Of a DNA stretch of 33,979 nucleotides, positions 3,736 through 26,038 are shown in pieces; the stretch's first letter is position 1, and every line of letters begins with the position of its first letter. The stretch is taken from contig CAMDDO010000033.1 of assembly GCA_945892755.1 (NCBI GenBank), positions 1 to 33,979 of the forward strand, read 5' to 3'. Source of the DNA: Rhizobium sp. Q54. Its GTDB lineage: Bacteria; Pseudomonadota; Alphaproteobacteria; UBA828. Both the position numbers and the translations under genes were made by a program. The notes beneath the pieces were generated by a model. It was given only the letters and a program-made list of their open reading frames with translations, was not told the DNA's origin and made no database searches.

Positions 3736-4029
3736 ATGAAGGGCTACGTCATCGCCGAGGTCGAAGTCACCGACCCGATCTTGTTCGAACAATACCGCGC
3801 GGGCGTGCCAGCCACGGTCGCAGCCCATGGCGGGCGCTATTTGGTGCGCGGTGGTGCGATCACGCCGGCCGAAGGCGGCTGGAATCCGAAGCGATTGATC
3901 ATTCTCGAATTCCCTGACGTCGCCGCGGCCAAGGCCTGGCACGATTCGGCGGCCTACGCGCCCATGAAGGCCATGCGCGAGCGTTCGGCGCGTTCCAAGA
4001 TCATTATCGTCGAGGGCGCCGCGCCTTAA
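3736..4029 (+). CDS. DUF1330 family protein
   Basis: A 97-residue protein of the DUF1330 family, a ferredoxin-like dimeric alpha/beta-barrel fold. Family features are the MKGYVIAEVEVTD start, the AAHGGRYLVRGG segment and the FPDVAAAKAWHDSAAYAPMK segment near the C-terminal half. I place the start at ATG 3736 because it has a strong purine-rich site (GGGGAG, 3725-3730) and the family always begins MKGY-like; the frame stays open upstream. The biochemical role of the family is not established. It follows the Sel1 gene by 35 bases. Its stop codon shares the TTAA at 4026-4029 with the stop of the convergent CoA-transferase gene. Confidence 0.85.
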   Translation: MKGYVIAEVEVTDPILFEQYRAGVPATVAAHGGRYLVRGGAITPAEGGWNPKRLIILEFPDVAAAKAWHDSAAYAPMKAMRERSARSKIIIVEGAAP

Positions 4030-5252
4030 TTTCCGTCTGGGCCGGCGACCACGCCTTGATCGTGCAATTTGCCGATTGCCGCGTCGCTTAGGCCCAGCAC
4101 TTCGGCGAGGATGGCGTCGGTGTCTTGGCCTAGCCTCGGCGCCGGGCCTGGGGCAACGCGAGGGGCCGCGCCGAATTCGAGCGGCGAGCCAGGCACACGG
4201 TAACGGCCAACCCCCGGTTGCTCGATCTCGGCAATCATCGGGTTGGCCGCCGGCGTGAAACGCCGATCGTGCCGCACCATCTCGCCGAAGCTCTGGTAGG
4301 GCCCCCACAGCACGCCCGCTCGATTGAGTGCGACTCCGACCTCTTCAAGCGTGTGCGCGGCGAACCAGGGCTCGAGCAGGCCGACCAGTGCGTCACGCCC
4401 GGCATAGCGATCGGCGTCCTTCCGAAAATCCAGGCCGCGCGCGGCTTCAAGCGCGCGCAAGGCCTCGAGTACGCCGGCCGCCTTTGCCAGGTCCTCGACA
4501 TGGCGCGCGGTGACGGTCGCCACCATCACGCGCGCTCCGCCCTTGGTCGGGAAGTCGCGCCCGAACGTGCCGAAGATCGCGTTGCCGAGGCGCGGCCGGT
4601 CCGCGTCATTGACCTCGACCTCGGCGGTGTAGCCGAGCGCGGCGGCCAGCGCGGCGCCGACGTTGAACAGCGAGAGCTTGACCAACTGGCCCTGCCCGGC
4701 GAGCCGGCGATGGCGTTCGGCCGCCAGAAGCCCGATCGCGGCGTGCAGCCCGCAAGTGAAATCCCACGCCGGAATTACGCTGTTGACCGGGCCGTCGGCG
4801 GGTTCCGGCCCGGTGACATAGGGGAAGCCCAGCGCGGCATTGACCGTGTAGTCGACCGCGGTCGTGCCATCGGGATTGCCCTGGATCAGCAGCATGATCA
4901 AATCGGCGCGACGCGCCTTGAGCGCGTCATAGCCGAGCCCATCACGCACCGGCAGGTTGCTCAGGAACAGCCCGCCACCCTCGCCCGGCGCCGTGATCAG
5001 CGCGGCGATCAGCTCGCGCCCCCTGGGGTCGGCGGTATTGACCGCCAAGGAGCGCTTGCCCTTGTTGAGGCCGGCCCAATAGAGGCTGTCGCCTTCGGCC
5101 GTCACCGGCCAGCGCCGATAGTCGACGCCGCCGCCGATCGGGTCGAAACGGATCACCTCGGCGCCGAGCTGGGCCAGTGTCATGCCGCCCAGGGGCGCCG
5201 CCACGAAGGCCGAGCCCTCGACCACGCGAAGGCCGGTTAGCAATCCGCTCAT
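4026..5252 (-). CDS. Family III CoA-transferase, 2-methylfumaryl-CoA isomerase-like
   Basis: A 408-residue CaiB/BaiF-type (class III) CoA-transferase. The catalytic aspartate is visible as Asp164 in VIPAWDFTCGLHAA, and the N-terminal VVEGSAFVAAPLGGMTLAQLG and LYWAGLNKGKRSLAV stretches are typical of this subgroup. From memory of the family, these stretches match 2-methylfumaryl-CoA isomerase (mesaconyl-CoA C1-C4 CoA transferase, EC 5.4.1.3) of the 3-hydroxypropionate cycle better than CaiB, Frc or Amacr. No other gene of that cycle is in the window, so the physiological substrate is uncertain. It is alone on its strand. Its ATG lies only 24 bases from the divergent ATG at 5277, so the two genes must share promoter DNA. 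Confidence 0.8.
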   Translation of the reverse strand: MSGLLTGLRVVEGSAFVAAPLGGMTLAQLGAEVIRFDPIGGGVDYRRWPVTAEGDSLYWAGLNKGKRSLAVNTADPRGRELIAALITAPGEGGGLFLSNLPVRDGLGYDALKARRADLIMLLIQGNPDGTTAVDYTVNAALGFPYVTGPEPADGPVNSVIPAWDFTCGLHAAIGLLAAERHRRLAGQGQLVKLSLFNVGAALAAALGYTAEVEVNDADRPRLGNAIFGTFGRDFPTKGGARVMVATVTARHVEDLAKAAGVLEALRALEAARGLDFRKDADRYAGRDALVGLLEPWFAAHTLEEVGVALNRAGVLWGPYQSFGEMVRHDRRFTPAANPMIAEIEQPGVGRYRVPGSPLEFGAAPRVAPGPAPRLGQDTDAILAEVLGLSDAAIGKLHDQGVVAGPDGN

Positions 5253-5276: not shown

Positions 5277-6467
5277 ATGGCGCGCGACACGCTATTTAAT
5301 TGCGCCGTCGTGGTCGAGTCGCGCCACGCCACCGCTACGAGGAGTTCCCCGTCCATCTCGCCGAAGATTCGTCCCGCTCGCCTCAGCGATATCGCCGATC
5401 TGCTCCGCATCGAGGACACCTCGTTCGCCGGCGACCGGCTGGCGCGCCGGAACTTCCACTATTTGTTAACCAAGGGCAAGGTCAGCTGTCTGGTCCACGA
5501 GGACGAGGGACGCATCGGCGGCTACGCCATGCTGCTCTTTCACGCCGGCCTGCCGCTCGCCCGGCTCTACTCGTTCGCGGTCGAGTCGGCGCGGCGCAAG
5601 AACGGAATCGGACGGACCTTGCTTGAAGCCTGTGAAGACGAGGCGCACCGGCGCAATTGCACGCATTTGCGGCTCGAAGTGCGCCCCGATAACGATGCCG
5701 CGATCCGCTTCTATCGGCGCGTCGGCTTCCGCGAATTCGACACCGCGCCGGATTATTACGAGGACCACGCGACGGCGCTCCGCATGGAGAAGCCGCTGCG
5801 CCTCGAGCCGCCGCGCGCCCCCGCCGCCGTGCCCTATTACGCCCAGACGCTTGAATTCACCTGCGGCGCCGCGGCGCTGATGATGGCGATGGCCGCGCTC
5901 GATCCGGCCTTGCCGCTGGATCGGCGCACCGAGCTCAGGCTCTGGCGCGAATCGACAAGCATCTATATGACCTCGGGCCATGGCGGCAGCGACCCCTATG
6001 GGCTTGGGCTCGCGGCGGAGCGCCGTGGCTTCGATGTCGAGATCCGGGTCAGCGACCCGAACGAATTGTTTGTCGATGGCGTGAGAAGCGAAGAGAAGAA
6101 GGCCGTGATGCGCCTGGTCCAGCAGGATTTCCGCGCTCAGCTCGCGGAAACCTCGACGCGAATCCGGCACAAGCCACTTAAGGTCGCCGGACTCAGGCGA
6201 CGGCTCGATCGCGGCGCCGTGCCGATCGTGTTGATCAGCTACTACCGCTTTCATCAGCAGAAACTGCCGCACTGGCTGACCATCACCGGGGCGGACCAGC
6301 ATTTCATCTATGCCCACGATCCCTATGCCGGCACCGACAACAAGAAGACCGGGGCCGAATGCAAGAACCTGCCGATCACCCATGAGGACTTCGACCGCAT
6401 GTCGCGCTACGGCAAGGCACGGCTGCGCGCGGCTGTCGTCCTCACGCGGCCCGGCACCAAGCACTGA
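5277..6467 (+). CDS. GNAT acetyltransferase fused to a C39-like cysteine peptidase
   Basis: A 396-residue two-domain protein. Residues about 29-172 form a GNAT N-acetyltransferase: the acetyl-CoA pyrophosphate loop is RRKNGIG (106-112), followed by a typical [12 protein letters not shown] strand-helix. Residues about 185-390 are a papain-like C39-type peptidase: Cys196 in [13 protein letters not shown], His332 in LPHWLTI and Asp348 in YAHDPY form the expected triad. The fusion is known in bacteria and normally sits beside a RimK-type ATP-grasp ligase, as it does here 13 bases downstream. Iyer and Aravind's amidoligase survey proposed that such sets build or process peptides or peptide tags. 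The start is uncertain: ATG 5277 is only 24 bases from the divergent gene, and GTG 5310 downstream of an AT-rich TATTTAAT (5291-5298) is a fair alternative. Confidence 0.85.
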
Positions 6468-6480
6468 ATGGTGGATTGAG

Positions 6481-7980
6481 ATGCACGTTGTCGTCATCGA
6501 CCGGAAGATTCAGCTCCCGCTGCCCTACCGAAACTGGACGGTCATTCGCGACCGCGACTTCATCACCTCGCCCGAGCAATTCCAGGCGCGGCGCGACAAG
6601 GTGGTCAATCTGTGCGCCGATTACAGCTACCTCGGCTACGGCTATTACTGCTCGTTGCTCGCCGAAGCCCGCAAATTGAAGGTGATTCCCTCGGTCCGCA
6701 CGCTCTTGGAGTTGCGCGATCGCTCGATCTATCGCCACGCGCTGCCCGAGCTCGACGACGCGCTGCGCCAGCGCATGAAGAAGATCGAGGTGCCGGCGCT
6801 CAGTCGCTTCGCACTCGACGTCTATTTCGGGCGCCCCGATGACGAGCGCTTCACCGAATTCGCGCGCCGCGTGTTCGACCGCTTCCGATGCCCGATCTTG
6901 AGGGTCGAGGTCTCGGCCGAAGGGCGCTGGCATGTCGCACGCATCCGCCCGCTCTCCTTTGGCGAGCTCAGCCTCGAACAGCAGGACCGCTTCCGGACCG
7001 CGCTCGATGACTACACGCGCGCTTCCTGGCGCATTCCGAAGACGACCGTGGTGCCGAAATACTCGCTTGCCATCCTGCACGATCCGAACGAATCGATGCC
7101 GCCATCCTCTCCCCGCACATTGCAGAAGTTCATCCGCGTCGGCGAGCAGATGGGCGTCAAGGTCGAGCTGATCGAGCGCAAGGACTATGCCGAGCTTGCC
7201 GAGTATGACGCGCTGTTCATCCGCGCCACCACCGCGATCGACCACCACACCTTCCGCTTCGCCCGAAAGGCCGAATCGGAAGGCATGCCGGTGATCGACG
7301 ACCCGACTTCGATCCTGCGCTGCTGCAACAAGGTCTATCTCGCCGAGCTGTGCAAGGCCGACCGGATTCCAACCCCGCGCACGCTAATCATCGACCGCGG
7401 CACGGTTGATTCGGTCGAGCGCGAGATCGGCTATCCCGCCGTGCTCAAGATTCCGGATGGCTCGTTCTCGCGCGGCGTGGTCAAGGTCGAGAACCGCGAG
7501 CAGCTCCTCCAGCGTGCCGGCCTCCTGCTCAAGGAGTCCGACGTTATTCTCGCGCAGCAATATATCTATACGACGTTCGACTGGCGCGTCGGCGTGTTGC
7601 GCGGCGAGCCGCTTTACGTGTGCCAATACATGATGTCGCGCGGTCACTGGCAGATCGTGAAGCATGGCGACGATGGCCGCTTCCAAGAGGGTGGCGCGAC
7701 CACCTTCGCGGTCAAGGACGCGCCGCGCAACGTGGTCTCGCTGGCCGTGCGGGTCGCCAATCTGATCGGCGACGGGTTTTATGGCGTCGATATAAAGGAA
7801 ACCGCCGAAGGCCTCCACGTGATCGAAGTCAACGACAATCCGAGCATCGATACCGGCTATGAGGATCGGGTGCTGAAAGACGAGCTCTACCGCCGCATCA
7901 TCCAGGAATTCCTCCGCCGGCTCGAAGGCCGTCAATTGCTTGAACGGCCCGCCAAGCTCGCGGTCGTCGCGGCCGGCTGA
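6481..7980 (+). CDS. RimK-family ATP-grasp ligase with RLAN N-terminal domain
   Basis: A 499-residue protein. Residues 1 to about 160 match the RimK-like ATP-grasp N-terminal domain (RLAN). A pre-ATP-grasp region follows at about 190-285, and an ATP-grasp domain covers about 285-485. ATP-grasp signatures are Lys323 in [17 protein letters not shown] (glycine-rich loop), Asp437 in FYGVDIKE, and Glu449, Asn451 and Asn453 in [10 protein letters not shown] for Mg binding. The enzyme should form an amide bond through an acyl-phosphate, joining an amino acid or amine to a carboxylate; the substrate cannot be read from the sequence. I use ATG 6481 (MHVVVIDRK) because it begins the conserved domain and follows the GNAT-C39 stop by 13 bases; the frame is open further upstream but there overlaps the previous gene. 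The last 49 bases overlap the convergent exporter gene. Confidence 0.88.
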
Positions 7981-10304
7981 GCTTCGCTCTTGCCGCCGCC
8001 GCGATCGATCATGATCGCGAGCGCCGGCAGGATCAGAAGGTCGACGACGAAGGCGAGGCCGATGATCAGGGCCGCGAGCGCGCCGAGGCTCGCATTGACC
8101 TCAAAGCCCGAGGTGGCGAGCACGCCGAAGCCCGCGCAGAGCACGGCGGTCGTGGTCGCAAGCGCCGGCCCAACCGATTCGACCGCATAGATCGCCGCTT
8201 CGCTCGGCGCCATGGCGAGCGTGCGACGCGCACGCTGGTAGCGGCTCAAATAATGAATTGAATTGTCGACCACGACGCCGAGCGTCATGGCGACCACGGC
8301 CGAACTTGCCAGCCCAAGCTGCCCGACCAAATAGCCCCAAAGCCCAAGCGCAATCAGCGCCGGCACAAGATTGGGTAGCAAGGTGATGAGCCCAAACCGC
8401 AGGCTCCTGAACAACGCGACCAGGAGCAGCGAAACCAAGCCGAGCGCGACGCCCGTGCTGGTCAACATGTTGGTGATGTTCTGGCCGGAGACATGGGCAT
8501 ACATCATGCTGAGCCCAGTCGCCCGCGCATTGATCCCGGGCGGCGCGTTGTCGGCGACCCACGCCTCGGCCCGCCCCGCCAGGGCGCGCAATTCGCGCGC
8601 CGGGAGGCCGACGACGATGACGCCGAGACGCGAAGAGGAGGCGGTCAGATCAATCAGACCCGATTTTGGCGCGTCCTTGGGCGTTGCCTCGGCATAGGCC
8701 ATCAATAAGGTGCGCGCGGCGCCGGCCTCGGTGGGCAAGCGGTACTCGGTGTTATTTCCGTTCTGTCCTGCCTGGTTCAGGCGCTTCACGATGTCCGTCA
8801 GGCTCGAGACGTGAATCACACCCGACTGGGTTTGGTACCAGGTCGCGAAGTCGTCGAGAAACCTGAGGTACTTGTCATCGAGCGCGCCGAATGGTGCGCC
8901 GGCATTGACCACATGCTCGATCACGTCGGTGCCGGTGAGATTCGCCTCGACGAAATCGGTGGCGCGGCGAAACTCGTAGCGCTGGTCGAAATATTTGGTG
9001 AATTGGTCATTGAACGCGATCATGCCGACGCCCGGGCCAAAGCCGGCCACGAGAACAAGGCCGCCCGCGAGCGCCAAACGGCGATGGCGCACCAGCAACG
9101 AGCCGAGGCCGCGAAACAATCCGGCTTCTTTCTCGGCGCCGCGCGATGGTTTGAGCGGCAGAATGGCAAGCAGGGCCGGCAATAGCGTGAGCGAGAACAA
9201 GAGCGCCAGCATGACGCCGATCGCGGTCAGATTGCCGAGGTCGCGCATCGGGGGCGAAGGCGTCGTGTTCATGGCGAGGAAGCCCGCAGCGGTGGTCAGA
9301 CTGGTCATAACCACCGGCCAGAGATTGACCGAGAGCGCCTCGATGATCGCGGCACGCTTGTCGAGGCCGCGGGCCATGGCGCGCCGTACCGCGCTCACGA
9401 TATGCACGCTATCGCCGATCGAAACCGTGAGAATGATGGTGGGCGCTGCCGCCGAGGCCGGACTGAGGCTGAACCCCATCCAGCCCGCAAGGCCCATGGC
9501 GCCGATCACCGAGGCGCCGACCACCGCGAGCGACGCAACCGCGCCGGTGAACGAGCGAAGCAGGGCAATGAGCAAAAGGACGACCAGCGCGACCATGATC
9601 GGGCTGAGTTCCGCGAGGTCGCGTTCGGTCGCTTCGGCAAAAGCATGGCTGCCGATCAGGATTCCGGTCGCATGGAATTGCAACGTCGGAAAATCGGTCG
9701 CGAGCTCGGCCACGATCACCCGTATTTTGCCGACCAAGGTCGCCACCCCCTGGTCGTCGGTCACCACAGCATTCAAATTGACCGCGATCACATTGCCGGT
9801 CACCGCGACCAGCCGGCCGCGCAGGAGCGGCTCGGCGCGCGCCGCCTGGCCGGCGGCGAGCGCCTCGGCCCGATCGAGCCGCGCGGCATCGGCGATCAAG
9901 GGCGTCAAGGTCAGGCGGCCATCCTCGAAACGGGGCACCAGATAGTTGGTCGGCGAAACGATGCGCGTGATTTCGGGCAAGGTCTTCGCGGCCTCGACCA
10001 ATCGCGCTGCCGCGGCAAAAGCCTCTGGCGTAAAGGCCCCAAGACCCTGCGTCGGGCGCGCCTTCGGCGCGATCGCGATCAGCACGTTCTTGCCCTCGCC
10101 GAAATCGTGCTCGAAGGCGTTGAGCGTCTTTAGCGTCGGGTCGTCGGGCGCGAAGAACACGCTGGTATCGTTGCTGAAACGCAAATTGAGCCCGCCGGCG
10201 GCCGCGGCCAGCAGCGCGGTAACGCTAAGCGCCAGGATCAACCAGCGCGCACCGTGCAATCTTGCGATCAGCTCTGCCACGTCGTCCTCGATTTGGCATA
10301 GCAT
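7932..10304 (-). CDS. RND/MMPL-family transporter
   Basis: A 790-residue polytopic protein with two similar halves. Each has an N-terminal membrane helix, a large periplasmic loop and a cluster of five membrane helices. Typical RND (sterol-sensing-domain-like) motifs are [15 protein letters not shown] in the first half and [15 protein letters not shown] in the second, where the Asp residues would carry the proton relay. The extracytoplasmic part begins [16 protein letters not shown]. It is a proton-driven lipid or hydrophobic-compound exporter by family; the substrate is unknown. Hopanoid genes lie at the window edge, but the sequence does not resemble HpnN closely enough to name it so. No adaptor or outer-membrane channel gene is adjacent. 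ATG 10304 or an in-frame GTG eight codons further in could start it. Confidence 0.85.
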
Positions 10305-11210: not shown

Positions 11211-12353
11211 CTAAGTACCCTCGCGCACCACGGCGAAGGCTTCGTTGGTAAACCAGAGGCCGCCGTGCTTGCGCAGGACATCGCTCGTCGAATCGAGATA
11301 GACGCCGCGCTCAAGCACCGGCAGAAGCCGCGCATCCTCGATTTGCGCGACATAGACGGCGGCGTTCCAGGCCGCCATCAGGGTCGAGGTGCCGATGCTT
11401 TCGCTCACTTCCGTCGGCAGAGTGTGCAGGCTGTAGCGGAAAAGTGCGCGCGAATCAGGGTAGGCCATGCAGCGCAGTCGCGGCTGCTCGTCCTTGAGCG
11501 CGGCCTGAAGCACTTTCACCAGGTCGCGGCGCGGCGTGACGAACGGATTCTCGTTCGGCCAAACCGCGCGAATGATGTCCATTCCGGGATCACGGCCGGT
11601 CGATTGGACCACGACCATACGGCCATTCGGGGCCAAGGCTCGGGCGAGCGGCGCCAAGACATTGCGTACCTTGGCTTCGGCCGACACCCGCGCCTGATAG
11701 GGCTGCGAGGCAAGCACCAGATCGTAAAGGCCTTCCACCTTGCCGGATCGCGGGATGATGTCGTCCAGCACGAACTCGTGGTCCTTGCGATAGATCACAA
11801 CCACCGAGGGCCGCTCATAGACCGGGTTACCGGTCTTCGGGTTGGTCTTGATGCGCCAGCCCGAGGCAAGCGTCGGCTGAAGCTTCTTGCGAATCTGCAA
11901 GTCGAAATCGTGCGTCGTGTTGCCTTCGAGCGGGAAGACATGCCAGTTGAGATCGGCCAACGCCGTCTCGTTGCGCGGCATGAGGCGTGGCGCCTCGGAA
12001 TAGAACATGTTGGTCGCCACGAACACCATTTGAGGGTGCTCGTAGAATCGATCGGGCAGCTTCTCGACCGTGAGGCGCACGTCTTCGAGGCTGATTTCCT
12101 TGCCGACCGCGAGGATTGGCACGGTCGGAAAACGCTGGTGGACGGCGCGCAGCACGCGCGTCAGCACCGTGCCATCACCCATACCGGCGTCGAACAGGCG
12201 AAGCGCCGGCGGCCTCGGCACGAGCAGCGGCAGTTCCTCGCCGATGCGCGCCGCCACCTCCCACTTCTCGCTGCAGGTGGTCACGAACATCAGGTACTTT
12301 TCGCGGTTGTCGTAGAAGCGAAACGGCAGCTTCCGATTTGAGGCTTTGGCCAC
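11211..12353 (-). CDS. Conserved SAM-methyltransferase-fold protein of unknown substrate
   Basis: A 380-residue protein with a Rossmann methyltransferase core. Motif I is FDAGMGDGTVLTRVL (residues about 54-68), and later features are the YDLVLASQPY and LAPNGRMVVVQSTG strands that match motifs IV and V. The N-terminus KLPFRFYDNREKYLMFVTTCSEKW and the C-terminal SIGTSTLMAAWNAAVYVAQIE are characteristic of a proteobacterial family without known substrate. The start is set at GTG 12353 because AGGAG lies 8 bases upstream (12362-12366). The frame runs open to 12677 and contains an ATG at 12404, but that extension has low-complexity Pro/Arg composition and covers the divergent folate gene. It is divergent from the MTHFR homologue, so a shared one-carbon or SAM theme is possible but only inferred. 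Confidence 0.78.
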   Translation of the reverse strand: MAKASNRKLPFRFYDNREKYLMFVTTCSEKWEVAARIGEELPLLVPRPPALRLFDAGMGDGTVLTRVLRAVHQRFPTVPILAVGKEISLEDVRLTVEKLPDRFYEHPQMVFVATNMFYSEAPRLMPRNETALADLNWHVFPLEGNTTHDFDLQIRKKLQPTLASGWRIKTNPKTGNPVYERPSVVVIYRKDHEFVLDDIIPRSGKVEGLYDLVLASQPYQARVSAEAKVRNVLAPLARALAPNGRMVVVQSTGRDPGMDIIRAVWPNENPFVTPRRDLVKVLQAALKDEQPRLRCMAYPDSRALFRYSLHTLPTEVSESIGTSTLMAAWNAAVYVAQIEDARLLPVLERGVYLDSTSDVLRKHGGLWFTNEAFAVVREGT

Positions 12354-12476
12354 GACGCGGGCTCCTAGCGGGTGCGGCCGCAACGCTGGCCGGGGGCGTA
12401 TCATAAGAGGTATAGGGCTGGGACGCGACGCACGTTGAGGATGAATGGGGCTCGGATAGTTCGGGGATGGAGAGAA

Positions 12477-13424
12477 ATGACGAATGCGATGGCGAGCGGC
12501 GGGCGCCGCCCGATGGGACAGCTCGAAACCGCCTTGAAGGCCGGCTGGTTCGCCGTGACGGCGGAAACCGGCCCGCCGGACTCGGCCGACCCCGAAGCGG
12601 TCTTGCGCCGGGCGGGTTGCCTGAAGGGCCTGGCCGACGCGGTCAACGTGCTTGATGGCGCCGGCGCGCGGGCTCATCTTTCACCCTTGGCGGCGGCGGC
12701 CATCCTGGTTCGCGCGGGGATCGACACGGTGCTCCAATTCACCATGCGCGACCGAAACCGCCTGGCGCTTCAGGCCGATGTGCTCGGCGCGGCGGCGCTT
12801 GGCGTCAGGAATATTCTTTGCCTGACCGGCGATGCGATCGACAAGGGCGATCAGCCCGAGGCCAAACCGGTCTTCGATCTCAAATCGGGCGACTTCATGG
12901 CGATCGTGAAGCGGATGCGTGACCAGGCCGAGCTGCCCTCTGGTCGCAAGCTCGAGGCGCCGCCGGATCTCCTGATCGGTGGCGCCGCGGCGCCGTCCGA
13001 GCCGGCGCCAGGCTTTGCCGCCGGCGACATCGGCGCCAAGCTCGGCGCCGGGGTGGATTTCATCCAGACCCAATTCTGCTTCGACCTTGGCATGTTGCGG
13101 CGTTACATGGCCCGCCTCGATGAGCTCGGCTTTCTTGGCAAAGTGCCGTTCCTGATCGGGCTCGGACCGCTGCGCTCGGCGAAATCGGCGCGCTGGATGA
13201 ACGAAAACCTGTTCGGCGTGCATATCCCCGACAATCTGATTGCGCGGCTCGAGGGCGCAGCCGATCAGGCCAGGGAGGGGCGCGCGATCTGCATCGAGCT
13301 GATGCACGAGCTTCGGGACGTGCCGGGAGTGTCGGGCGTGCATTTGATGGCGCCGCATAGCGAGGCGGCGTGTGCCCAGGTGATCGAAGAATCGGGGGTC
13401 CTCAAGGGCCGAGCGCGAACATAG
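12477..13424 (+). CDS. Methylenetetrahydrofolate reductase family protein
   Basis: A 315-residue TIM-barrel flavoprotein of the MetF/MTHFR family, which reduces 5,10-methylene-tetrahydrofolate to 5-methyl-tetrahydrofolate. The segment FAVTAETGPP carries the catalytic Glu (Glu30); FTMRDRNRLALQADVLGAAALG and NILCLTGD (about 113-119) are FAD- and folate-site motifs. The VTAE-type motif and the overall pattern resemble the divergent MTHFR branch of corrinoid or one-carbon pathways rather than E. coli MetF. I chose ATG 12477 (MTNAMASGG) because it has GGAGAG just upstream and begins close to the domain; the frame is open back to 12372. It ends at a strong hairpin (13428-13469). No metH or metE is visible nearby. 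Confidence 0.82.
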   Translation: MTNAMASGGRRPMGQLETALKAGWFAVTAETGPPDSADPEAVLRRAGCLKGLADAVNVLDGAGARAHLSPLAAAAILVRAGIDTVLQFTMRDRNRLALQADVLGAAALGVRNILCLTGDAIDKGDQPEAKPVFDLKSGDFMAIVKRMRDQAELPSGRKLEAPPDLLIGGAAAPSEPAPGFAAGDIGAKLGAGVDFIQTQFCFDLGMLRRYMARLDELGFLGKVPFLIGLGPLRSAKSARWMNENLFGVHIPDNLIARLEGAADQAREGRAICIELMHELRDVPGVSGVHLMAPHSEAACAQVIEESGVLKGRART

Positions 13425-13481: not shown

Positions 13482-14375
13482 TCAGAAGCCGCGTACCTCG
13501 ATATCGCGGAACAGGACATCGCCCGTATTGTTGACCATGGCGATTCCGTCGAACCCCGATTTGATGCCCTGATCGGTGATCGAAAAGAGCTCTTCGCCGT
13601 CGAATGTGATGGTCATCAAGCCGCCGGCTGCGCGCTTCCAGCCGATCTTGTGCGCCCCGCCATCTTCCATCGCGATCGGCGGCGGGCCGCCATCGATCAC
13701 CGCGGTGCCCTTGCGGCTGAAGCGCGACAACTCAAAGACCGCCGACGCGGCGTCCGAGGAGTAGTTCAAGCGATAGCCGCTGGAACGATCCGCACCCTGA
13801 TAGACCACCCATTCGAAGTCGGCCGGTGTGTTGCGTGACAGCACCGAGCCCAGAATGTCGAAACTGTTGGTGATCTTGGCCGCGGTGAAGATCTCGGCGC
13901 GCTGTGTGCTGACCAGGCTGCCACCAGGGCCGCTCTTCTTGCCACTGCCCAAAATGGTGTCGAGGATCGAGCTGGCGGTGTCCTGTTTGCCGCCTTGCGT
14001 GCTCCCCGTGCCGGCGGGCCGGACGATGCTCCTGAGACCGCCCGTCTTCTCGAGCCCGAACTTGCCGGTGGCGATGGTCCATGCCGGGTTGCGCGTGATG
14101 TCGCCGTCGGTGAAGTTGTCCTTGATGAAGACCGGCACCTGCGAGGTGCCATAGGCGTCGAGCGCGTCGCGCAGATCCTCGAGGAAGCGCGGATCGGCTG
14201 CGCGCTGCCGCTCCGCGGTATCAATCAATGTATTGAGCCGCTGAATAAGCTCCTCGGTGCTGGCCACCGTCTGGGAGCCCTTCCATTCCGAATAGCGGAC
14301 GTCGGCAGCATGCAACGTCGTGATCGACGTGGTGCCGAGCGCGATGGCGGTAAGCAGCGCGGCCATTCTTTTCAT
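13482..14375 (-). CDS. Exported protein with a possible concanavalin-A-like domain, function unknown
   Basis: A 297-residue protein with an evident signal peptide (MKRMAALLTAIALGTTSI..., probable cleavage after LHA at about 23). The mature part starts with a helical region (residues about 38-75), then a beta-rich region: FIKDNFTDGDITRNPAWTIATGKF, a Gly/Ser-rich linker near 120-150, and the end GIAMVNNTGDVLFRDIEVRGF. Phrases such as NFTDGD..NPAWTI..GKF, YRLNYSS and FDGEELFSITD..IKSGFDGIAM resemble DUF1080/laminin-G-like jelly-roll proteins. No catalytic residues can be named. It is probably periplasmic or surface-located. The 5' side faces an AT-richer intergenic region. Confidence 0.72.
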   Translation of the reverse strand: MKRMAALLTAIALGTTSITTLHAADVRYSEWKGSQTVASTEELIQRLNTLIDTAERQRAADPRFLEDLRDALDAYGTSQVPVFIKDNFTDGDITRNPAWTIATGKFGLEKTGGLRSIVRPAGTGSTQGGKQDTASSILDTILGSGKKSGPGGSLVSTQRAEIFTAAKITNSFDILGSVLSRNTPADFEWVVYQGADRSSGYRLNYSSDAASAVFELSRFSRKGTAVIDGGPPPIAMEDGGAHKIGWKRAAGGLMTITFDGEELFSITDQGIKSGFDGIAMVNNTGDVLFRDIEVRGF

Positions 14376-19826: not shown

Positions 19827-21592
19827 GGCTCCTCGTCCGGTTCGTCGATGTCGCGTGGGTCGGCCGTCGGCTCTGCAAGGTCCACGGCGCGCACCCGGCG
19901 CTTGACGTCGCTGATGCGCGCGCCGGGAAACAGCTCGAGCGCCGCTTTCACCACGGGGTGCCGCGCCGCCTGATCGAGCGCGCGCTTCCGGTCATGATTC
20001 GCTTGTTCTGCGAGCGTCGGCTCGCCCTCTTCATTCGATACGGCGACAACCCAGCGCTCGCCGGTCCAGTCCTGCAGGGTTCTGGAGAGCAGCGTCGGCA
20101 GCTTCTGCGCCGCGGCCGCGCTCAAGCGAAGCTCGATGCGCCCCGGCTCGAAGTGCACAAGATGCGCATCGTGCACGAGCAGCGAATGAAGGATCGGCTC
20201 GCGTTTGGACTCGGCCAACGCCACGACGTCGGCGAACGAGCGGGGACGGATCGGTTCCGGCCCTTGAGACGCGACCGCTTCGACGCGGAGCGCGGCTTGC
20301 GGCGCCCCGGCTGGCGCGGAGGAACGACTGCCCGACGGCGCCGTGGGCGCTACGCGCGGCGGCTCGGTACGCATGTCGCCACCCCGTGAGACCGGAATCG
20401 GAGGTGCCGGCGCGGCCTGTTGCGCGCCGCTTTCGCGGGCCAGCGCGGTCAGCGCCTCGGCCGGTGTCGGCAGGTTGGCGGCATAGGCCAGCCGGATCAG
20501 CGCCATTTCGACTGCCTGGAGCGAATCCGCCGCGACGCGTGCATCGCCCGCGCCTTTGAATAGAATCTGCCAAGCCCGGCTCAGCACCGGCATGGTAAGC
20601 GTCGCGGCGAGCGCGCGGCCCTTGGCGCGCTCGGCCTCCGGCACGGTCGGGTCGTCGGCCGCGCCGGGCAAGACCTTTAGTCGGGTCAGCCAATGGCTGA
20701 ACTCCAGAAGATCGGCAAGCACGACCGCCGGGTCCGCACCCGCCGAATATTGACGCTCGAGATTGGCAAGCGCGCCCGGTACGTCGCCTTTCATCAAGGC
20801 CTCGAACAACTCGATCACCTGCACGCGGTCGGCGAGGCCGAGCATGTCGCGTACCATCGGCTCGTCGATCGCGCCGCCGCCATGGGCGATCGCCTGATCC
20901 AAGAGCGACAGGCCGTCGCGCACCGAACCGTCGGCGGCACGCGCGATCAACGCGAGCGCGCCCGGTTCGATCGCGACGGTCTCGGTCTTCACGATGCGGC
21001 TGAAATGGCCGATCAGCGTCGCTGCCTCGACGCGCCGGAGATCGAAGCGTTGGCAGCGCGACAGCACGGTGACCGGCAGCTTCCGCACCTCGGTGGTCGC
21101 GAACAGAAAGATGACGTGCGGCGGCGGCTCCTCGAGCGTCTTCAGCAGCGCATTGAAGGCCGCGCCGGACAGCATGTGCACTTCGTCGATGATATAGACC
21201 TTGTAGCGCGCGATCGCCGGCTTGTAGCGCACGCCATCGATCAGCTCGCGCATGTCGCCGACGCCGGTGTGGCTCGCGGCGTCCATTTCGATCACGTCGA
21301 CGTGACGGTCCTCGGCGATCGAGACGCAGGGCTCGCACACGCCGCAAGGCTCGGGCGTCGGGCCGCTCTTGCCATCCGGGCCAACGCAATTCAACCCACG
21401 TGCGATGATGCGCGCCGTCGAGGTCTTGCCCACGCCGCGCACCCCGGTGAAGAGAAAGGCATGCGCGATCCGCCCCGATTTGAACGCGTTGGTCACCGTG
21501 CGCACCAGCGCGTCCTGGCCGATCAGCTCGGCCAGCGTTCGCGGCCGGTACTTCCGGGCGAGCACGCGATAGGGGGCGGCGCCGTCGCTCAT
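19823..21592 (-). CDS. dnaX: DNA polymerase III subunits gamma/tau
   Basis: A 589-residue clamp-loader ATPase. Visible parts are Walker A GVRGVGKTS (50-58), a zinc module with Cys69, Cys83, Cys86 and Cys89, Walker B IIDEVHML (134-141), and the SRC motif with the arginine finger (178-180). A Pro/Ala-rich linker (about 385-440) leads to a C-terminal polymerase-binding domain. I see no obvious A-rich slippery site of the E. coli type, so a shorter gamma form by frameshift is not supported. It is the first protein gene after ffs on the minus strand and overlaps ybaB by ATGA. Confidence 0.96.
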   Translation of the reverse strand: MSDGAAPYRVLARKYRPRTLAELIGQDALVRTVTNAFKSGRIAHAFLFTGVRGVGKTSTARIIARGLNCVGPDGKSGPTPEPCGVCEPCVSIAEDRHVDVIEMDAASHTGVGDMRELIDGVRYKPAIARYKVYIIDEVHMLSGAAFNALLKTLEEPPPHVIFLFATTEVRKLPVTVLSRCQRFDLRRVEAATLIGHFSRIVKTETVAIEPGALALIARAADGSVRDGLSLLDQAIAHGGGAIDEPMVRDMLGLADRVQVIELFEALMKGDVPGALANLERQYSAGADPAVVLADLLEFSHWLTRLKVLPGAADDPTVPEAERAKGRALAATLTMPVLSRAWQILFKGAGDARVAADSLQAVEMALIRLAYAANLPTPAEALTALARESGAQQAAPAPPIPVSRGGDMRTEPPRVAPTAPSGSRSSAPAGAPQAALRVEAVASQGPEPIRPRSFADVVALAESKREPILHSLLVHDAHLVHFEPGRIELRLSAAAAQKLPTLLSRTLQDWTGERWVVAVSNEEGEPTLAEQANHDRKRALDQAARHPVVKAALELFPGARISDVKRRVRAVDLAEPTADPRDIDEPDEEP

Positions 21593-21624
21593 GGTGATCC
21601 GTCTGGCCAGACAGGCAGGAGGGC

Positions 21625-21721
21625 GGGAGGCCGGACAAACGACCCGGCTCGAAACTCGTTACGGCTGCTTCCTTCCGGACCTGACCGGGTTGGCGAGGGA
21701 ACCGTCCATCGCCGACCTCCC
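21625..21721 (-). ncRNA. ffs: Signal recognition particle RNA (4.5S type)
   Basis: The minus strand carries the near-universal SRP RNA domain IV core GGTCAGGTCCGGAAGGAAGC (20 bases, complement of 21667-21686), with the GGAA tetraloop and the asymmetric internal loop that binds Ffh. The ends GGGAGGTCGG (5', from 21721) and CCGGCCTCCC (3', to 21625) pair over 10 base pairs, with one G-U, and define a 97-nt hairpin RNA. It lies 32 bases upstream of the dnaX start codon. The ffs-dnaX arrangement is common in alphaproteobacteria. The RNA is essential for co-translational membrane targeting with Ffh and FtsY. Confidence 0.93.
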
Positions 21722-21727
21722 ACGCCT

Positions 21728-21756
21728 AATATCGACCTTCCGCACCGGCGCTTCAA
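21728..21756 (-). promoter_or_regulatory. Candidate promoter of ffs with a palindrome over the -35
   Basis: Read on the minus strand, TTGAAG (21756-21751) and GATATT (21733-21728) have 17-base spacing and the -10 ends six bases before the RNA 5' end. The -35 is embedded in a perfect inverted repeat, GGCGCTT-C-AAGCGCC (21747-21761), which could be an operator. Confidence 0.5.
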
Positions 21757-21819
21757 GCGCCCCGGGCGATCACAGGGCCTCACTTTGACCAGATTCTGTC
21801 GCTGTGCCAGTCTCGCGCC

Positions 21820-22767
21820 ATGTACGGCTCGGCCCCGCCACGCGGCAATCCATTCTCCGGCGTTCCGCTGGATCGCATCCATCACCTGAGAGACGATCAG
21901 GCTTGGCTCGACGCGCGCCTGAGCGATCCCGCGACCCGCTTCGTCGCGGTGACCAAGAGTCGCAATCTGATTTTGAACGGCTCGGAAATGCGGGCTTTTT
22001 TCCACACCCGCGAGACCATCGCCGATTTGGTCACCGAGCGCAGCACCGTGGCGCTGCTCGGTTTGGGTGAGGAGCCGGCGGCGGAGGCCGCGCACTTTGC
22101 AATCGATTTGTCCGATGCGTCCGATGAAGAACTCATGGCGCGTTCGCCGTCCGCCGAGCTGATGGATCTGCGCCAGCTCGTCCAGGTCATTCCGAGCCAC
22201 GAGGCGGCGTTGCTCGCCTATGCCCGTGGTCTGCTCTATTGGCATTCGCGCCACCTATTCTGTGCCGTGTGCGGCGCGCTTAGCGTCTCGCGCTCCGCCG
22301 GGCATCTTCGTGTCTGCACCAATGAAGCGTGTGGGGCCTCGCATTTTCCGCGCACCGATACAGCGGTGATCATGCTCGTGCATGACGGCGATCGCTGCGT
22401 GATGAGCCGGCAATCCCATTGGCCGCTCGGCATGCATTCGACGCTCGCCGGTTTTCTTGAACCCGGCGAAAGTCTCGAAGAAGCCGTGGCACGCGAGGTC
22501 CATGAGGAAACCGGGTTGCGCGTCGCTGATGTGCGCTATCATTCCTCGCAACCTTGGCCGTTCCCGGCTTCGATCATGGTCGGCTTCTATGCCCGCGCGG
22601 CTGGCGGCGACTTTCGCCCCAATCTCGATGAGCTTGAAAGCGCGGGCTGGTATTCGCGCGAGCAACTCAAGGCCGCCCGCGAAGGCGAGACGTTTCATCT
22701 GCCCAATGCCTATTCGATCGCACGCCGGTTGATCGAAGACTGGCTCGAAGGGCGAGTCCAACTTTAG
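21820..22767 (+). CDS. nudC: NAD(+)/NADH pyrophosphatase NudC
   Basis: A 315-residue Nudix hydrolase that cleaves NADH and NAD+ and can remove NAD caps from RNA. It has a zinc ribbon (Cys148, Cys151, Cys166, Cys171), a complete Nudix box in GFLEPGESLEEAVAREVHEE (211-230) continuing into TGL, and the NudC-specific SQPWPFP motif (243-249). The N-terminal domain is also of the NudC type. The gene is divergent from ffs-dnaX. Its stop shares four bases with the stop of the convergent pheA gene. Confidence 0.93.
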   Translation: MYGSAPPRGNPFSGVPLDRIHHLRDDQAWLDARLSDPATRFVAVTKSRNLILNGSEMRAFFHTRETIADLVTERSTVALLGLGEEPAAEAAHFAIDLSDASDEELMARSPSAELMDLRQLVQVIPSHEAALLAYARGLLYWHSRHLFCAVCGALSVSRSAGHLRVCTNEACGASHFPRTDTAVIMLVHDGDRCVMSRQSHWPLGMHSTLAGFLEPGESLEEAVAREVHEETGLRVADVRYHSSQPWPFPASIMVGFYARAAGGDFRPNLDELESAGWYSREQLKAAREGETFHLPNAYSIARRLIEDWLEGRVQL

Positions 22768-25141: not shown

Positions 25142-26038
25142 TCAGATTTCGGCTAAGAGGTCGAGCGCGGCGTCGATCTGATCCGGGCCGATCCTCAGGC
25201 GGTACAGGCTACCTTGGTCAGCTTGGCTCTTGATCAGGTGAACCACCGCGGTTGGATTGAAATCCGACGAAACGATGTTGCGCAGCGCGACCGAGAGCGC
25301 CGCACTCGGCTCGATCGCTTCGAGTTGGGTCTCGTCTGCCGTTCGCTCGACCTGAACCAACGCTCGGATCGGGCGTGTCTCGCCATAACTCAAGAAGCCG
25401 GGCAGCGTACGCGCCAGAATGATCCGCCGATCGGGCCCAACCGCGGCCTTTGCAAAGAGGTCCGAGGGAATGCCCGAGGCCAAGGCGGCGGCTTCGGCGT
25501 CGCCATGGCAACGCAGTTTCAGGCATCGGGGGAACGCCTGCACCGTCTGGCAGTCCGCTTCGAGTGCGACCCGATCGTCGCTGATCACCGTGAAGCCGCG
25601 GCGCCATGCCCGATAGAGCAGCGAGGTTTTGCCGGACTGCGCGGGCCCGTGGATAACCACGGTGCCACGGTCATGTTCGAACGCCGCGGCGTGGAACACC
25701 GTCCCCGCATAGGCCTCGATAAAGACCTGGCCGAGCGCCTCGAGGATCAAATAGGTCAGCTGGTCGTCACCCGCCGCCCAAGCCTGCCAGGCGCCGGTGC
25801 GTACGAGCGCGCCACCATCCTCACTGCGGACGCTCACCACCGCACCGTCTGAACTCGGCGACAACCGGTCTTCATGGCGCGCCGGGAGCGCGAGAAAGCG
25901 CTCGATCCGCTCGATCGTGGGCTGTTTGGTCGCTTCCAGATGGGCAGCGCAGCCATGCCAATCGAATGACACGATGGCGCCCGGTCCGCCCGTTTGGGCC
26001 ACCTCGGGTTCGTTACGCCTCGCCCTTCCGAGACTCAT
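25142..26038 (-). CDS. HprK-like P-loop kinase-family protein
   Basis: A 298-residue protein whose centre resembles the catalytic domain of HPr kinase. It has a FHAAAF strand, Walker A IHGPAQSGKTSLLYRAWRRG (129-148, Lys137), then FTVISDDRVAL with the acidic pair Asp154-Asp155 that acts as metal ligand/catalytic base in HprK. The N-terminal 110 residues are of unknown fold and there is no HPr-binding DRTU domain. HprK-related stand-alone proteins occur in proteobacteria near peptide-maturation or polysaccharide genes, with unproven substrates. No ptsH is in the window. The neighbour upstream on the same strand is a PPP-family phosphatase, which suggests an opposing pair. Kinase activity is inferred. 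Confidence 0.72.
   Translation of the reverse strand: MSLGRARRNEPEVAQTGGPGAIVSFDWHGCAAHLEATKQPTIERIERFLALPARHEDRLSPSSDGAVVSVRSEDGGALVRTGAWQAWAAGDDQLTYLILEALGQVFIEAYAGTVFHAAAFEHDRGTVVIHGPAQSGKTSLLYRAWRRGFTVISDDRVALEADCQTVQAFPRCLKLRCHGDAEAAALASGIPSDLFAKAAVGPDRRIILARTLPGFLSYGETRPIRALVQVERTADETQLEAIEPSAALSVALRNIVSSDFNPTAVVHLIKSQADQGSLYRLRIGPDQIDAALDLLAEI

Follow-up and report, generated by a model that had tools for sequence, protein, structure and literature searches.

A conserved GNAT and RLAN/RimK-type ATP-grasp ligase gene pair with an optional C39-like peptidase domain

The two genes and their domains

The window analysed here is a stretch of 33,979 nucleotides, one contig (C33) of the 3.27 Mb genome of Rhizobium sp. 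Q54. It carries two adjacent genes on the plus strand: a gene fusing a GNAT acetyltransferase to a DUF3335 domain, a C39-like cysteine peptidase (5277–6467, +; 396 amino acids, TGA stop), and an RLAN/RimK-type ATP-grasp ligase gene (6481–7980, +; 499 amino acids), with a gap of 13 bases between the stop codon of the first and the ATG of the second (6468–6480, +). A gene for an MMPL/HAE3-like RND transporter (7932–10304, −), which is not part of the system, lies tail-to-tail with the ligase gene and overlaps it by 49 bases. On recheck, the coordinates, the 13-base gap and the 49-base overlap of the original prediction were exact. Divergent from the pair, 24 bases from the start of the fusion gene, is a gene for a CaiB-type CoA-transferase (4026–5252, −) that resembles 2-methylfumaryl-CoA isomerase (TIGR04253, 514 bits, cut-off 725); a CoA-transferase of this type adjoins the pair also in the same-genus loci L074 and L075. 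Elsewhere in the window, the open reading frames at 11211–12677, 13482–14375, 21589–22254 and 25142–26038 (all −; 221–488 amino acids) gave no Pfam match.

The GNAT domain of the fusion protein (5364–5795, +; about residues 30–173) is RimI/Ard1-like and matches Acetyltransf_1 in Pfam with an E value of 5.7e-19. Its R-x-x-G-x-G loop reads R107-K-N-G110-I-G112, and among 40 aligned GNAT-C39 relatives Gly110 is found in 37, Glu134 in all 40 and Tyr146 in 37 (Phe in the other 3); Tyr161 is a further residue of the domain. In a sequence alignment, Glu134 and Tyr146 correspond to Glu103 and Tyr115 of E. coli RimI, which we take to be the catalytic pair of that enzyme. While the RimI/Ard1 N-alpha-acetyltransferases are the closest GNATs by both sequence and fold, the domain scores 81.3 bits with the RimI model (TIGR01575), below the cut-off of 86.4. 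We rejected the housekeeping RimI as its identity, as a separate RimI scoring over the cut-off is encoded on contig C54.

The second domain (5829–6443, +; residues 185–389) matches DUF3335, "Peptidase_C39 like" (PF11814), with an E value of 4.2e-84 and 281.6 bits against a cut-off of 25. Among the same 40 relatives, the Cys–His–Asp triad is kept at Cys196 (39/40), His332 (39/40) and Asp348 (37/40, the other 3 having Glu), so that the domain assignment of the original prediction and the triad it named both held; Glu219, Trp333 and a GHGG motif are near-invariant outside the triad. From this residue pattern we predict a peptidase with an intact triad. No solved structure came up when the C39 domain by itself was searched against PDB sequences. 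The AlphaFold2 model of the whole protein has a mean pLDDT of 88.5. As residues 1–28 are unconserved and pLDDT is mostly below 50 up to residue 25, the actual start codon may lie downstream of 5277.

In the ligase, the RLAN domain (PF14401; 6553–6999, +; residues 25–173) was found with an E value of 3.4e-45 and 153.8 bits against a cut-off of 25, and has the invariant residues Asn43, Gly54-Tyr55-Tyr56 and Arg64. It is followed by a RimK/LysX-like stretch (7183–7854, +; residues about 235–458) in which the Pfam match to the RimK ATP-grasp reaches 33.4 bits (cut-off 21; E value 4e-8). The RLAN/RimK call and the complete ATP-grasp site that had been proposed were borne out, the ATP- and magnesium-site residues Lys323, Asp367, Arg369, Asp437, Glu449 and Asn451 being invariant in 62 aligned ligases. 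Lys439, within a GVDLK motif, is equally invariant, and aligned RimK and LysX sequences have different residues at that position. Structure comparison of the AlphaFold2 model (mean pLDDT 88.3) likened the fold to LysX/ArgX, RimK and Ddl. LysX/ArgX of LysW-dependent lysine and arginine biosynthesis are the closest ATP-grasp enzymes by sequence and fold (PDB 3vpd, 5k2m), but the window ligase carries RLAN and scores 85.7 bits with their model, far from the cut-off of 275.6. Because it likewise stays below the cut-offs of the RimK family (TIGR00768, 83.8 against 143.4 bits) and of the S6-ligase model (NF007764, 27.8 against 331 bits), we regard it as an enzyme that is predicted to act like the LysX/RimK-type ligases yet belongs to none of these families. 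Among sampled genomes, 44 of 385 from the window's class and 72 of 398 from its phylum carry RLAN, yet no paper turned up when the open literature was searched for its accession.

Conservation of the pair and variability of the peptidase domain

The homologues of the two genes, far from never being adjacent, keep close company: a GNAT adjoins the ligase in 114 of 117 homologous loci, in three gene orders, which upholds the proposed link between the genes. A search using the ligase only found a GNAT nearby in 79 of 80 loci, the remaining one (L120) being truncated by the contig end, and in a sample of the class collected with the RLAN HMM all 29 loci had one. The C39 domain accompanied the GNAT in 43/80 and 16/29 loci of these two sets; the set of 117 includes 13 loci picked for genomes without DUF3335, and its C39 share is no rate. 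The pairing persists through 7 changes of gene order on the ligase tree; the GNAT mostly diverges from the ligase in gammaproteobacterial loci and others, and once (L187) it lies downstream. In Azospirillum brasilense Sp7, plasmid ABSP7_p1 carries GNAT, C39 and ligase side by side. In genome G570 the ligase stands alone at its locus and an intact GNAT-C39 gene is found on another contig. The RLAN ligase at 7800–9389 of L223, on the P. aeruginosa plasmid pZYPA1927, has no GNAT nearby at this plasmid locus. Among the 385 class genomes, DUF3335 occurs in 34, and 27 have both RLAN and DUF3335, 17 RLAN only, 7 DUF3335 only and 334 neither (Fisher P value about 1e-23). We conclude, judging by gene neighbourhoods and trees, that GNAT and ligase form a conserved core inherited together; the pair is ancient, and its probable role is to make or edit a product of peptide-like nature. 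An alternative partner set is seen on a Legionella adelaidensis plasmid (L238, 41–3232), where the companions of an RLAN ligase are a ligase of GCS2 type and an N-formylglutamate amidohydrolase, and no GNAT.

Judged by the distribution of the C39 domain across loci, acetyltransferase, peptidase and ligase are not equal members of the system. The domain is missing from about half of the loci, and on the ligase tree, built with FastTree, its presence or absence switches at least 27 times; at least 18 of these changes fall on branches supported at 95 or higher. The contrast can be seen between near relatives: in the same-genus L075, the ligase is 92% identical to that of the window and the GNAT is kept, but the C39 domain is replaced by a tail of about 50 residues. 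Genome G449 has two paralogous pairs, L190 with C39 and L191 lacking it, whose GNATs are 46% different and whose ligases are 25% different. Genome-wide profile searches showed DUF3335 to be absent from 17 RLAN genomes, that of L075 among them. At two loci the C39 domain is decaying beside an intact GNAT: in L110 (1830–2900) the fold is kept, but Ser replaces the catalytic Cys and Arg the catalytic His, and in L142 (1873–2993) two reading frames share the domain between them. By these comparisons, the peptidase is an optional fusion, repeatedly lost while GNAT and ligase persist, and since it is lost so often, an obligatory synthetic step is an unlikely role for it. Stand-alone DUF3335 loci (L219–L222) showed no clear partner in their lists of open reading frames; L221 encodes one protein with two tandem DUF3335 domains (7791–9722), and RLAN is not beside it.

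The same losses bear on a proposed acyl- or peptidyltransferase role of the C39-like domain, comparable to that of BtrH or phytochelatin synthase, in which it would move the ligase product to another amine. Transferases do occur among related papain-like families (PMC10318531), and the near-invariant Glu219, Trp333 and GHGG motif are positions of DUF3335's own beyond the triad. That C39-like folds include acyltransferases (BtrH) and phytochelatin synthase argues against a peptidase role, but the triad is complete and the repeated loss of the domain with GNAT and ligase retained speaks against an essential synthetic step; we consider a transferase improbable.

Neighbouring genes and candidate acceptors

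A conserved third gene, either a precursor or an exporter, had been suggested as a check on the system, and our survey found none. By Pfam, 110 neighbours from about 30 loci gave 130 families, none of which occurred in more than 4 of these neighbours, the commonest being GGDEF with 4. Clustering by sequence put no third family in more than 16 of the 117 loci. One cluster of ABC-ATPases spans 16 loci, and one of RND-sized proteins spans 10, of which six are from Ferrovibrio or are near-identical copies; both change place and strand between loci. The transporter next to the window pair had been suggested to export its product. Its gene overlaps the 3' end of the ligase gene, as a natural-product locus with an adjacent exporter might have it, but an MMPL homologue is near the pair in none of the 117 other loci, the same-genus L074 included, which refutes the exporter as a conserved feature and makes such a locus scarcely credible. 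PADLOC profiles for anti-phage defence gave no match, and a search for carriage by phages found only distant RimK-like matches, in cyanophages.

The search for a small precursor frame was equally barren: none near the pair is conserved across the 117 loci, the best family occurring in 8 loci, all related, and no nearer than 1.8 kb. Maturation of a ribosomal peptide in the manner of graspetides or microviridins, in which the ligase would modify the precursor, the C39 domain cut its leader and the GNAT cap it, could draw on the joint occurrence of ATP-grasp ligases and GNATs in microviridin clusters (PMC13039773). The missing precursor tells against it, as do the small gaps of the locus (24 bases on the divergent upstream side and 13 inside) and the fact that the ligase is nearest in sequence to LysX and RimK, and we hold it to be very unlikely. 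The microviridin protease NosP was rejected as a parallel, being an unrelated zinc protease. As neither a conserved third gene nor a small frame nor an MMPL gene was found near the pairs, the substrate is probably not encoded at the locus. A core pair with an optional peptidase and with no local gene for a substrate or an exporter narrows the experiment to the two genes.

RimB, the protease associated with the S6 glutamate ligase RimK, is an aspartic, retropepsin-type protease and thus of a different family from C39. In Pseudomonas, it trims the glutamate tail that RimK adds to S6, and E. coli does without it (PMC10092738); the system is similar to ours in that it pairs a RimK-like ligase with a protease missing in some lineages, and differs in that it has no GNAT and its ligase lacks the extra RLAN domain. 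A Glu-ended S6 tail was not found in the window's genus, the S6 of the window genome ending in GDGMDIGA, and LysW, on which LysX/ArgX depend, is absent from the window genome. S6 and LysW were accordingly rejected as acceptors, which leaves the two obvious protein candidates unsupported.

Proposed function and regulation

We tentatively favour, at somewhat less than an even chance, a module of two enzymes that forms amides on a peptide-like acceptor and whose editing domain is optional. The ligase would activate a carboxylate of the acceptor as an acyl phosphate and, if RimK, LysX and MptN are a guide, attach Glu or a similar amino acid; the GNAT would acetylate the free alpha-amine on that acceptor or on the product; and the C39 domain, where kept, would hydrolyse the product's amide bonds and in this way trim or recycle it, much like RimB in the RimK system. 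The acceptor, not encoded locally, would probably be a housekeeping peptide, protein or amino-acid derivative. The idea of the original prediction that the ligase makes an amide, the GNAT caps an amine and the peptidase trims or reverses remains the best reading. It is supported by a pairing that persists through 7 changes of order, by the unlinked GNAT-C39 retained in G570, by the co-occurrence of RLAN and DUF3335, by the dispensability of C39 and by the RimK/RimB precedent, as well as by the nearest characterised relatives acting on polypeptides (Ard1/RimI for the GNAT, LysX/ArgX/RimK for the ligase and C39 for the peptidase). Against it, neither enzyme reaches the cut-offs set for the characterised families.

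The main rival is a small-molecule pathway, in which the product of the pair, recycled by C39, would be a solute or metabolite of the N-acetylated di- or oligopeptide kind, similar to N-acetylglutaminylglutamine amide (NAGGN). In NAGGN synthase, GNAT and ligase are fused in one protein, which works with an amidotransferase. The match of the two activities to that enzyme (Ngg, TIGR03103), a GNAT and an ATP-grasp ligase acting together, and the failure to find a gene for a protein substrate near the pair are consistent with such a pathway; so is the Legionella plasmid ligase, whose GCS2 amino-acid ligase and N-formylglutamate amidohydrolase neighbours indicate N-acyl-glutamate chemistry. However, with TIGR03103 the window GNAT reaches 26 bits against a cut-off of 569 and the ligase gives no match, no protein of the window genome is over the cut-off, no amidotransferase is conserved beside the pair, and the GNAT is nearer to the protein N-alpha-acetyltransferases. 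We consider a metabolite of this kind possible, though on balance rather unlikely.

Iyer et al. in 2009 reportedly predicted GNAT-DUF3335 fusions together with RLAN ATP-grasp amidoligases. As far as that prediction is outlined, it involves the same Pfam families, PF11814 with GNAT and PF14401 with RimK, and the window pair is a further case of a kind already predicted from sequence, the fusion itself having been noted before. In a statement citing Iyer et al. 2009, a later paper describes DUF3335 as often fused to GNAT domains (PMC10318531), and its account of DUF3335-GNAT proteins gives neither a ligase partner nor a function. Relative to this paper, with Iyer et al. 2009 outside the comparison, the obligate GNAT-ligase pairing, the optional peptidase and the absence of a third gene are new.

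Also new is a predicted CpxR site for a P. aeruginosa homologue. Upstream of the RLAN ligase in L223 we found GTAAAGCTTGCGTAA, and the same site is listed for PA1345, "Hypothetical ATP-binding protein", as a motif prediction that was negative in DAP-seq (PMC12802237). Because the two sites are identical, the L223 ligase is apparently PA1345. A similar CpxR-like box lies at the same distance from the ligase in L191, and among the upstream regions of 37 ligases such boxes were seen only in L223, in L191 and, weakly, in L188. One could go further and picture a reversible, two-ended modification of a housekeeping protein, its N-terminus acetylated, its C-terminus extended and C39 acting as the eraser, under envelope-stress control in Pseudomonas through the apparent PA1345; we find this doubtful.

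The two enzymes of the module differ in their rates of evolution. Across the 117 loci, evolution is faster in the GNAT than in its ligase, above all where C39 is absent, and a fixed substrate shared by both enzymes fits less well with this. For ligases 2–15% apart, the median GNAT difference is 0.40 if either locus is without C39, against 0.09 otherwise, the pairs being phylogenetically clustered. Pairwise dN was lower than dS wherever both could be computed.
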